A DNA stretch of 64,000 bases from Gammaproteobacteria bacterium. Its GTDB lineage: Bacteria; Pseudomonadota; Gammaproteobacteria; CAIRSR01. The stretch lies in the NCBI GenBank assembly GCA_963575655.1, contig CAUYTY010000011.1, forward strand, positions 1 through 64,000, written 5' to 3'. A program made the translations under genes and the position numbers. The notes beneath the pieces are model-generated. The model saw nothing but the letters and a program-made list of their open reading frames with translations, made no database searches and was not told the origin of the DNA. Below, in pieces: positions 2,218 to 37,220 of this stretch; position 1 is the stretch's first letter, and every line of letters begins with the position of its first letter.

Positions 2218-2612
2218 CGGTGTCCCCGAGAAACCCCGCCCTTCAGGGCGGGGAGGAAAGGGGACGGTTTTCTCCGCCCCTTTGGATAGCAAAAACTTTA
2301 GAAGTTGCCGGTCTTTCCCGGCTGTCAGCCCGTAAGGGCCTAGTGACGCACACCTTGCGGTGTGGCTCCCCTCGCTCGCTTATTCGTGGGTTTTTGTACC
2401 CTTTCGGGTCCATCCTTGGCAGCAGCACTGGCTTCGACCCCGTATGCCTGTTTAACCACTGACCGCAGTGTCCGGAACTGAGGAAGCATCCCGGAGTGCC
2501 TATTGCACCGCTTGCGCGGATTCCACGATAAGGTCTCGTCGCAAAGCGACGGAGCTGGTCAACTTCAAGACTTGCTTTCACAAGCCTCGCCCTTTAGGGC
2601 GGGATAGTTGAC
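2218..2612 (-). mobile_element. Element A: ORF-less HEARO/omega-RNA-like IS200/IS605-type element
   Basis: The plus strand reads TCAT (2214-2217), then a CCCCGCCC/GGGCGGGG hairpin, hairpins at 2307-2339 (CCGG/CCGG and GCCC/GGGC), ACACC/GGTGT, the block GGAACTGAGGAAGC, a CGTCGC/GCGACG hairpin, and a terminal hairpin ending in TTGAC at 2608-2612. On the minus strand the element therefore runs from GTCAA to a point directly before ATGA. There is no transposase or nuclease ORF. The GTCAA end lies 24 bases from the 3' end of tRNA-Met. Assignment to HEARO/omega-RNA rests on the ATGA junction, the subterminal hairpins and recalled motif similarity, not on a database search. Confidence 0.65.
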
Positions 2613-24612: not shown

Positions 24613-25195
24613 TCACTTAACCTCGTTGATGCGGTATCGAAAGGGATAAATAACCGCCATGTCCCCTCTATGGTACTAGGGGCCGAATTATGACACAAAG
24701 TGGTAAAAATTCACAATTGGATTGCCAACTTTTCCCTCGTAAGCGATAACATGCCACAATGCAGAGACTTATCTCACAGGTGTCAATCACCCTGGGCTAA
24801 AGCCCGTGGCTTGTGAAAGCAAGCCCGAGATTGACCAGCCTTAGTCCGAGAAATCGGACTACGTTGCAACGAAGTACAAGACTCACCTTGGGGCGCTTCC
24901 TCAACTCCAAGCTCTGAAAGCAGCAGAAGCAGACACGCGACGGGTACGCACGAAACGGTCTGCTGCAAGGTTCGCAAGAATCGAAGCTGCGTTGCAACAT
25001 TGGCGAGGGGAGCCACACCGTAAGGTGTGCGTCACTAGGCCCTTACGGGCTGACAGCCGGGAAAGACCGGCAACTTTAAAGATTTTGCTATCCAATGGGG
25101 CGGAAAAAACCGTCCCCTTTCCTCCCCGCCCTCAAGGGCCGGGTTTCTCGGGGACACTGATGACATTTTCGATGACATTTTCGGTCATTTCCCGA
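24613..25195. other. recA upstream region followed by element B
   Basis: The recA promoter region (24613-24781) is followed by element B (24782-25159), then a 12-base direct repeat GATGACATTTTC at 25159-25182 that begins on the last base of the element. No gene is seen. Confidence 0.6.
24782..25159 (+). mobile_element. Element B: ORF-less HEARO/omega-RNA-like IS200/IS605-type element
   Basis: On the plus strand it starts GTCAATCACCC and a CTGGGCT/AGCCCGTGG-type hairpin. It then has GTCCGA/TCGGAC, GCGCTTCCTCAACTCC, ACACC/GGTGT, GCCC/GGGC and CCGG/CCGG hairpins (25039-25071), CCGTCCCCTTTCCTCCCC and a final CGCCCTCAAGGGC hairpin, ending directly before ATGA at 25160. It is nearly identical to element C over the first 220 bases. 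It contains no gene. It lies between recA and the DUF4124 gene, both of which point left. Confidence 0.7.
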
Positions 25196-34656: not shown

Positions 34657-34735
34657 GGTGCTAACCACCCCGCCCTTATTAAAGTACGGAACAGTTATCC
34701 GGCAATATGGTGGCAAATAACTTGAGGAGACTTTG

Positions 34736-36151
34736 GTGACGATAATAAAAGAGGTCTTCCTACCTGACATTGGAAATTTCAAGGATGTAGATGTCATCGA
34801 GGTTTTAGTTGCCCCCGGCGACCGGGTCCAACGCGAGAGTGGCCTGGTTACGCTAGAGACCGACAAAGCCACCATGGATGTTCCTTCTCCTGACGAAGGT
34901 ACTATTACAACCGTACAGGTCAAAGTGGGTGACAAAATCTCCAAGGGAGGGCTACTGATCACCATGGCGGTGGCCGAGGCTCAGGCAGAGGAATCGCCAC
35001 CATCGCCCATACCGATGACCACTACGCGACCTCCTCAATCTCCCCAGTCGTGGGGACTGGAAAGGCAAATTGCGGCACCTGCTGCGGCCCCCAGTGCTGT
35101 AATACCAGCCACAGATCTTCCTGGGCAGGGTCCGAGACGCCCCCCACCGATAGCCGCGCTCGCCCAAGATACGACGGGTCAACTCGTCCCCCATGCCAGC
35201 CCTTCTGTGCGCCGCTTTGCTCGTGAACTAGGCGTAGCTTTGGCCGAGGTCCGAGGAACGGCTCTCAAGGGACGCATTACTCAAGAAGATGTGCGTGGCT
35301 ACGTTAAAAATATTATGACTGCACCAGCAGTGACGCCTGGTACAGTGCAAGGGGAAAAGGAAACGGGACGGTTGTTTGGATTTCGTTTGCCCGAACCGCC
35401 GACGGTTGATTTTTCTGCCTTTGGTCCGGTGAAAGTTCAGCCACTCTCACGCATCCAACGCCTATCGGGGCCTAATCTGCACCGTAATGCGCTCGCCATT
35501 CCCCACATCACCCAGTTCGATGAAGCCGACATTACTGACCTGGATGCCTTTCGTCAGGCGCAAATCAAGGCTTCCCTCTCTCATCATCAATCCGCTGCCC
35601 GTGCGGAGGGTGGCGCGACCAAGAAACTTACCTTACTTGCATTTCTAATGAAGGCAGCGGTTGCCGCTCTGCAACACTATCCCCAATTCAATGCATCTCT
35701 CGATAAAGGCGCGGAAAATCTCATTCTCAAGGGTTACTTTCATATTGGGATGGCGGTCGAAACTTCTCAGGGATTGGTGGTGCCCATTATTCGAGACGTA
35801 GACCGCAAGGGCCTCTGGGATCTGGCAGAAGAATTGGTTGTAGTAAGCGAAAAGGCCCGTGCGCGAAAACTCACGCCAAGCGACTTGCAAGGTGGTTGTT
35901 TTACGCTCTCCAGTTTGGGTAGCATCGGTGGTGGTCATTTCACTCCCATCATTAATGCACCCGAGGTGGCGATTCTGGGAATTAGTCGAGCCGTTATGAA
36001 ACCGGTTTGGCAGGACAATACCTTTGTACCCCGACTCATGTTACCGCTATCTTTGTCCTACGACCATCGAGTTATCGATGGGGCTGCCGGGGCACGTTTT
36101 ATTACCTATTTTAATCAATTGCTCAGTGATATTCGGCGGCTATTATTGTGA
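34736..36151 (+). CDS. aceF: Pyruvate dehydrogenase E2, dihydrolipoyl acetyltransferase, single lipoyl domain
   Basis: A 471-residue E2. One N-terminal lipoyl domain has the lipoylated Lys in LETDKATMDVPSP. A Pro/Ser-rich linker leads to the E3-binding domain (PSVRRFARELGVAL, GRITQEDV), and the C-terminal catalytic domain ends SLSYDHRVIDGAAGARF with the catalytic His. E. coli AceF has three lipoyl domains; one is common elsewhere. GTG 34736 follows GGAG. No E3 (lpd) gene follows: element C and a broken gene occupy that place. Confidence 0.94.
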   Translation: MTIIKEVFLPDIGNFKDVDVIEVLVAPGDRVQRESGLVTLETDKATMDVPSPDEGTITTVQVKVGDKISKGGLLITMAVAEAQAEESPPSPIPMTTTRPPQSPQSWGLERQIAAPAAAPSAVIPATDLPGQGPRRPPPIAALAQDTTGQLVPHASPSVRRFARELGVALAEVRGTALKGRITQEDVRGYVKNIMTAPAVTPGTVQGEKETGRLFGFRLPEPPTVDFSAFGPVKVQPLSRIQRLSGPNLHRNALAIPHITQFDEADITDLDAFRQAQIKASLSHHQSAARAEGGATKKLTLLAFLMKAAVAALQHYPQFNASLDKGAENLILKGYFHIGMAVETSQGLVVPIIRDVDRKGLWDLAEELVVVSEKARARKLTPSDLQGGCFTLSSLGSIGGGHFTPIINAPEVAILGISRAVMKPVWQDNTFVPRLMLPLSLSYDHRVIDGAAGARFITYFNQLLSDIRRLLL

Positions 36152-36199
36152 TCTCATAATAAGCTTCGATTCACTCTTCATCTTGCAGGAGCAACAGTA

Positions 36200-36456
36200 G
36201 TCAATCACCCCGGGCTAAAGCCCGAGGCTTGTGAAAGCAAGCCCGAGATTGACCAGCCTTAGTCCGAGAAATCGGACTACGTTGCAACGAAGTACAAGAC
36301 TCACCTTGGGGCGCTTCCTCAACTCCAAGCTCTGAAAGCAGCAGAAGCAGACACGCGACGGGTACGCACGAAACGGTCTGCTGCAAGGTTCGCAAGAATC
36401 GAAGCTGCGTTGCCTTTCCTCCCCGCCCTCAAGGGCGGGGTTTCTCGGGGACACTG
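36200..36456 (+). mobile_element. Element C: internally deleted HEARO/omega-RNA-like element
   Basis: It starts GTCAATCACCC with a CCGGGCT/AGCCCG hairpin. It matches element B almost base for base to about 36413, lacks the P1/P2 hairpin block, and resumes at CTTTCCTCCCCGCCC with the final CCCCGCCC/GGGCGGGG hairpin. It ends directly before ATGA 36457-36460. Joining its flanks gives AGGAG, eight bases, then ATG, which strongly suggests a clean insertion between a ribosome binding site and a start codon. Confidence 0.72.
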
Positions 36457-37220
36457 ATGAACTTTCCAACGGTCATCCCATTCAGTGCCTACCTACCGGA
36501 GGGCGAGGATCGCACGCCAATCTGTTGGGTGGGGCGGTTCTTGCCAGTGATCCGGCGGTGGAAGATGCCGGGGTAGATACTGGGTTCTCCCCCCAACCTG
36601 GCACCCTGCGAGCACCAGATGTTGCTGTGGGTAAAATATCCGATGCACCTGGTTGGGTTCGTGGGGTACCGTTACTCGCGGTGGAATACGCTGATTCTGG
36701 ACAAGACGAAACAGCACTTGCCGAGAAAATTGCGGATCTTCTGGACGCGGGAACCAAAATGATTTGGGTTGTGCGTTTGAGCGGTCCGCGACGTGTCGAG
36801 ATTCACCAATCGCGGCAACCAATCCAACTGTGTTTTCCAGGACAGATGTTGGAAGCACCTGGGGTACTCAAGAATCCTATCCCTGTGGAAGCACTCTAGG
36901 ATCGCGATACCGCCAATGCGGCCACGTTACGCAATTTGTTGCAACGTTTGGGATATCCTGATCTTGAAGCCGTTCGCGCCGAAGGAATAACGAAAGGAGT
37001 AGCCGAGGAACGGGCCGAAGGACGAGCCGAGGGACGAGCCGAAGGACAAGTGAGTGGTAGGGTAGCCATATTATCCGAACAACTAACATCAAAATTTGGT
37101 GCCTTGTCTACCGAGGTGGTAACGCAAATTGAGAATGGTTCATTGGAAGAGTTACAACGTTGGGGGAGAAAACTGTTGGTTGCGATCTCCCTCGACGAAG
37201 TATTTAGTGAAATAAAATAA
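36457..37220 (+). pseudogene. Broken Uma2-family (DUF820, PD-(D/E)XK-like) gene
   Basis: The reading frame starts MNFPTVIPFSAYLPEGEDR, shifts by one base in a G-rich run near 36530-36535, and continues with the Uma2 core (APDVAVGK, GVPLLAVEYADSGQD, LLDAGTKMIWVV, GPRRVEI). A TAG at 36897-36899 interrupts it, after which the same frame continues with LRNLLQRLGYPDLEAVRAEG and a run of AEGR repeats. Uma2 proteins resemble restriction-type nucleases and are often multicopy. Loss of its ribosome binding site to element C may have preceded the decay. Confidence 0.75.

Follow-up and report, generated by a model that had tools for sequence, protein, structure and literature searches.

Within the 64,000-nt stretch of gammaproteobacterial DNA analysed here (the window), a short repetitive element, element C, separates an AGGAG motif from an ATG in front of a Uma2-type gene. 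When the element is removed and its flanks are joined, AGGAG (36187-36191) is followed by eight bases (CAACAGTA) and then by ATGAAC, whose first base is 36457. An earlier note on this DNA regarded the joined flanks as the empty site, that is, as the rebuilt leader of a Uma2 gene into which the element had inserted between ribosome binding site and start codon. The letters of that reconstruction are borne out by the sequence; the question is whether the two flanks ever formed one site.

Element C and its family

By comparison of copies the repeated unit spans 36200-36456, in place of the 36180-36475 given in the earlier note. The features of the locus, and two sister copies in the window, are as follows.

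2218-2612, minus strand: sister copy A, of a 395-nt subtype, followed by ATGA on its own strand
24782-25159, plus strand: sister copy B, full length, followed by ATGA
34733-36151, plus strand: upstream gene for a dihydrolipoamide acyltransferase (E2; PF00198, PF00364, PF02817)
36180-36199, plus strand: left flank, from sequence a presumptive omegaRNA guide if transcribed, with AGGAG at 36187-36191
36200-36456, plus strand: element C, of HEARO/omegaRNA type, IS200/IS605-like and non-autonomous (RF02033 match; ends from about 36 copies)
36200-36253, plus strand: left end, the guide-adaptor region of the omegaRNA, with closing stem 36200-36206/36247-36253 (Rfam alignment, fold)
36211-36224 and 36226-36243, plus strand: left-end hairpins (Rfam alignment, fold)
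36413-36414, no strand: junction of a private 121-nt internal deletion (alignment of 25 copies)
36421-36440, plus strand: right-end hairpin CCCCGCCC-TCAA-GGGCGGGG (sequence and fold; kept in sisters)
36447-36451, plus strand: Shine-Dalgarno (SD)-like GGGGA of the right end, 5 nt 5' of the target motif (anti-SD duplex energy)
36457-36460, plus strand: ATGA, the target motif/TAM adjoining the right end and not the Uma2 start (RTGA rule, frame)
36459-37220, plus strand: 5'-truncated Uma2 remnant in a single frame, with a DUF4351-like C-terminal part (PF05685, PF14261, orthologues)

The family has about 40 close copies in the genome, the full-length sisters aligning over 378 nt at 97-100% identity, and element C, at 257 nt, is 121 nt shorter. 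The Rfam model RF02033 (HEARO) matches it over model positions 1-211, which is the full model, with 80.4 bits (E = 1.5e-16); this falls slightly short of the gathering score (83), for which the deletion is probably responsible, whereas 102-116 bits is the range for most sisters of the subtype, and two other copies in the window pass the gathering score. The left end is intact to the base (GTCAATC). The deletion, private to element C, has removed the 3' part that full-length copies have, with two stretches able to form hairpins, so that in the 25-copy alignment only element C is without complete 3' scaffold hairpins.

At two loci a truncated C-terminus of a Y1 TnpA sits immediately inside the family's right end, although no intact TnpA with both ends was seen, and behind a family member on contig C187 there is an IscB gene (RRXRR, 233 bits, plus HNH), located in the genome and not within element C. 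On this evidence the family is HEARO/IscB with IS200/IS605-type ends. It resembles the HEARO RNA (RF02033)/IscB omegaRNA of the OMEGA group in the whole-model match, in a left flank at the guide position, in RTGA on the right side at the TAM position and in the HNH-bearing IscB that follows a member in this genome; it differs in the absence of a protein gene from element C and most sisters and in the loss of the 3' part from element C. With IS200/IS605 elements (Y1 HUH transposase, no target duplication) the family shares sub-terminal hairpins, a fixed target tetranucleotide and a precise, non-duplicating insertion at nrfD (see below), and Y1 TnpA C-termini lie beside its right end, although element C has no intact tnpA. 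Because these C-termini adjoin the same right end, it is reasonable to infer IS200/IS605-type chemistry for the family from its sequences. The IsrB omegaRNA (PMC9581776) is similar in its 5' guide, guide-adaptor stem and NTGA-type TAM. In that system an SD lies in the terminal hairpin of the omegaRNA, upstream of the isrB gene (PMC9581776), whereas here the SD-like motif is on the outer side of the right end, turned towards the host gene; the partner here, having an HNH domain, is IscB and not IsrB.

If IscB/IsrB biology (PMC9581776) applies, the left flank of element C is presumptively a guide; no second match to it with three or fewer mismatches was found in the genome. In the IsrB structure study, truncation of SL7/8, the 3' tandem hairpins, reduced nicking by IsrB (PMC9581776), and since the 3' part of element C is deleted it probably no longer yields a working guide RNA. 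We therefore class element C as a decayed HEARO copy without autonomy rather than as a working omegaRNA.

The Uma2 remnant and the origin of its junction

The gene to the right of element C does not begin at the ATG that adjoins it. PF05685 (Uma2) is matched with 32.9 bits over profile positions 16-160 of 172 in a frame that excludes ATG 36457, and the ORF from that ATG encodes a 39-residue product with no Pfam match. The Uma2 frame, GAA CTT TCC AAC GGT CAT (ELSNGH), is offset by two bases from that of the ATG. A scan of the genome contigs gave three Uma2 orthologues (L063, L064 and L065; 81, 66 and 59% identity). They contradict the reconstruction: all three have about 25 coding residues before the junction point that are not in the left flank of element C, and a conserved motif, GPF(R/K)A(D/E)QIR.GD(P/R)YELSDGH, spans the junction position. 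The PF05685 match likewise enters at profile position 16 in the remnant and at position 10 in L063 and L065. ATG 36457 was rejected as the Uma2 start, being out of frame and having conserved coding sequence upstream of it in the orthologues; in the joined flanks, the 12 open codons 5' of the junction hold no in-frame start codon. The decay proposed in the earlier note was a frameshift and a stop. The stop is there (TAG at 36897-36899, where L063 has TAT, Tyr), and the frame is open from the junction up to it; the frameshift is an artefact of starting at ATG 36457. The gene has thus suffered a 5' truncation and one stop, with no frameshift.

Why, then, is there an ATG directly 3' of the element? 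Among 32 copies of the family with an intact right end in genome G000, the next four bases are ATGA in 31 and GTGA in one, and a fixed target motif is also seen in the elements of genome G002. Because RTGA is common to all 32 right ends, an ATG at this place is to be expected. HEARO elements prefer RTGA, a piece of background that served here as a lead only. RTGA stands at the TAM position, and the left flank at the guide position, of IscB/IsrB elements. Nor does the AGGAG by itself carry much weight, as an anti-SD match of at least equal strength lies upstream of 7.7% of all RTGA sites in the window. SD-like 4-mers are in mild excess in the left flanks of the copies (9/32, against 3-7/32 further upstream).

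The left flank belongs to the spacer of another gene: the stop codon of the E2 gene lies 48 nt 5' of element C, and no Uma2 homology was found in this flank. Since it is not Uma2 sequence, the joined flanks do not represent an ancestral Uma2 leader, and it is very probable that the two flanks of element C do not come from one Uma2 site. Downstream of E2 in genomes G001-G003 the gene order differs, and no empty site was seen there, none of these relatives being near enough to display an element-free E2-Uma2 region; a comparison of the Uma2 DNA with 56 related genomes gave no match outside G000. The apparent empty site at copy C is a false example, resting on a motif common to all copies.

Since Uma2 homology stops at the element edge, the element seems to have taken part in the loss of the Uma2 5' end. 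The account that we favour, and hold with moderate confidence, is a HEARO element before RTGA with unrelated flanks and a Uma2 5' end lost through recombination between direct copies. On this account element C is a non-autonomous member of a family that inserts directly 5' of RTGA without target duplication, mobilised in trans, presumably, by a TnpA of the family, with IscB as the likely partner of the guide RNA. The right flank is the interior of the Uma2 gene, where the codon context of ..YELS.. supplies ATGA, and the left flank is the spacer after the E2 gene. Two directly repeated copies would recombine and delete the stretch between them, so that the 5' end of Uma2 would be lost at the element boundary. 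This recombination step, the simplest route to the loss, is presumed, and pairs of directly repeated copies, some 3 kb apart, do exist in the genome (contigs C88 and C220); no reciprocal or parental copies of the proposed event were seen. The private 121-nt deletion could belong to the same event or to a separate one.

Two other routes to the junction were weighed, and the choice among the three is much less certain than the separate origin of the flanks. The element might have inserted within Uma2 at a TAT-GAA context, followed by a one-sided deletion, through imprecise transposition or through a nuclease cut and its repair, which removed the 5' part of Uma2 and joined the E2 spacer to the left end. 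The same boundary data fit this route, and a G002 copy at rpsH seemingly lost leader bases at its left end in comparison with genome G003; we nevertheless consider it unlikely, for element C has kept its left end to the base, which a random one-sided deletion need not respect. Alternatively, a short-read assembler could have linked two contigs through near-identical copies, so that the flanks would not be true neighbours. An assembly of 261 contigs with copies 97-100% identical, and a homology that stops exactly at the element boundary, would be compatible with such a joint, which we judge less likely still, given that a 121-nt deletion unique to element C is not readily made by error and that the lost 5' end of Uma2 did not turn up in the rest of the assembly (98% complete), which was searched with a short query and hence with moderate sensitivity. 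Very improbable is the earlier model of precise insertion between the SD and start codon of Uma2 with a later frameshift and stop: AGGAG-N8-ATG does exist after joining, and sister copies show exactly such placement at other genes, but here the ATG is outside a Uma2 frame that has no frameshift, and some 25 orthologue residues upstream of the junction are missing from the left flank.

Sister copies at start codons

As ATGA or GTGA can serve as a start codon, sister copies are often found with a leader directly on one side and the start codon directly on the other. A start was defined as an ORF of at least 100 aa plus an upstream stop within 35 codons, and the RTGA sites of the window and of the fetched flanks were taken as the null. 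By this measure RTGA starts an ORF in 13 of the 32 copies, as against about 5% of RTGA sites (p about 2e-9), and the excess persists when only non-genic RTGA sites (10-13%) are used for comparison (p about 5e-6 to 7e-5). Genes whose starts carry a copy in G000 include feoB, surA, ccoO, pdxA, mamD, thiG, an MFS transporter gene and a GT9 gene. G002, a genome of another genus, has elements that end in TCTCGGAGACAYTG, then ATGA, and that precede rpsH, rpoN, accC, metH, ptsI, nrfD, kaiB and a hemerythrin-GGDEF gene. The rpsH copy has rpsN on its left side, so that the order of the operon is preserved. At nrfD the element is present in G002 and absent from G003 and G000, and G003, aligned through the G002 junction, reads AGGA-N8-ATG with no duplication, an exact empty site. 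Precise insertion without target duplication, which the earlier note had read from the joined flanks at copy C, therefore has its support in this sister and its element-free relatives. The pattern is not universal: in G001 it is weak, with 4 of 26 copies start-like, and the CGGGCATTTG-type ends of that genome prefer GTGA and are hardly ever at starts. What might have been a single anecdote becomes a countable pattern of RNA-guide elements with a target motif that doubles as start codon and an end that resembles a ribosome binding site.

Three of these loci have features of their own. The copy at mamD (L028, G000:C201:30364-30600, minus strand) lies directly before the start codon (NF040916, 157 bits), and the presence of this gene suggests that the genome comes from a magnetotactic bacterium. 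At the start of thiG an element is found in both G000 and G001 (L049, L184) with different end subtypes, GGGGACACCG and GGAGACACTG, representing repeated or shared use of one site. One G002 locus (L087) has two right ends; kaiB follows one of them and a response-regulator-like ORF the other.

The right ends have, a few bases 5' of the target motif, GGGG or GGAG; duplexes with the anti-SD come to -5.7 and -6.6 kcal/mol, and the GGGGA of element C gives -5.7, compared with a mean of -2.65 kcal/mol for 16-nt stretches before RTGA sites. An SD-like right end of this kind is found before rpsH, accC, rpoN, surA and ccoO, and the leader left at rpsH in G002 lacks a clear SD where G003 has GGGAG, as would fit an exchange of the gene's own SD for that of the element. 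Tentatively, the right end (CGGGGA or CGGAG, 5-6 nt before ATGA) might act as a portable ribosome binding site that replaces the host SD at start codons, so that insertion before even essential genes (rpsH, accC) would be tolerated. Since the same bases may be conserved for recognition by the transposase, this role is one that we infer; if true, it would explain tens of copies before housekeeping genes.

Other copies and relatives

HEARO matches number 124 in G001, 37 in G002 and 0 in G003, which is of the same genus as G002, and the expansion is therefore very uneven within one family. Two HEARO-IscB copies in G000 (L006 and L007, at C222:19239 and C195:92980) truncate an IS607-type tnpA and are themselves broken by MITE-like repeats. 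A paralogue of the IS607 tnpA was set aside as their empty site because its sequence there is TCGG instead of RTGA and because the copies are broken by other inserts. A second IS607-like tnpA is interrupted exactly at its stop codon (L002). In the window, two low HEARO matches on the minus strand (709-941 and 1504-1736, 45.9 bits each) form an apparent tandem duplication with a period of 795 bp.
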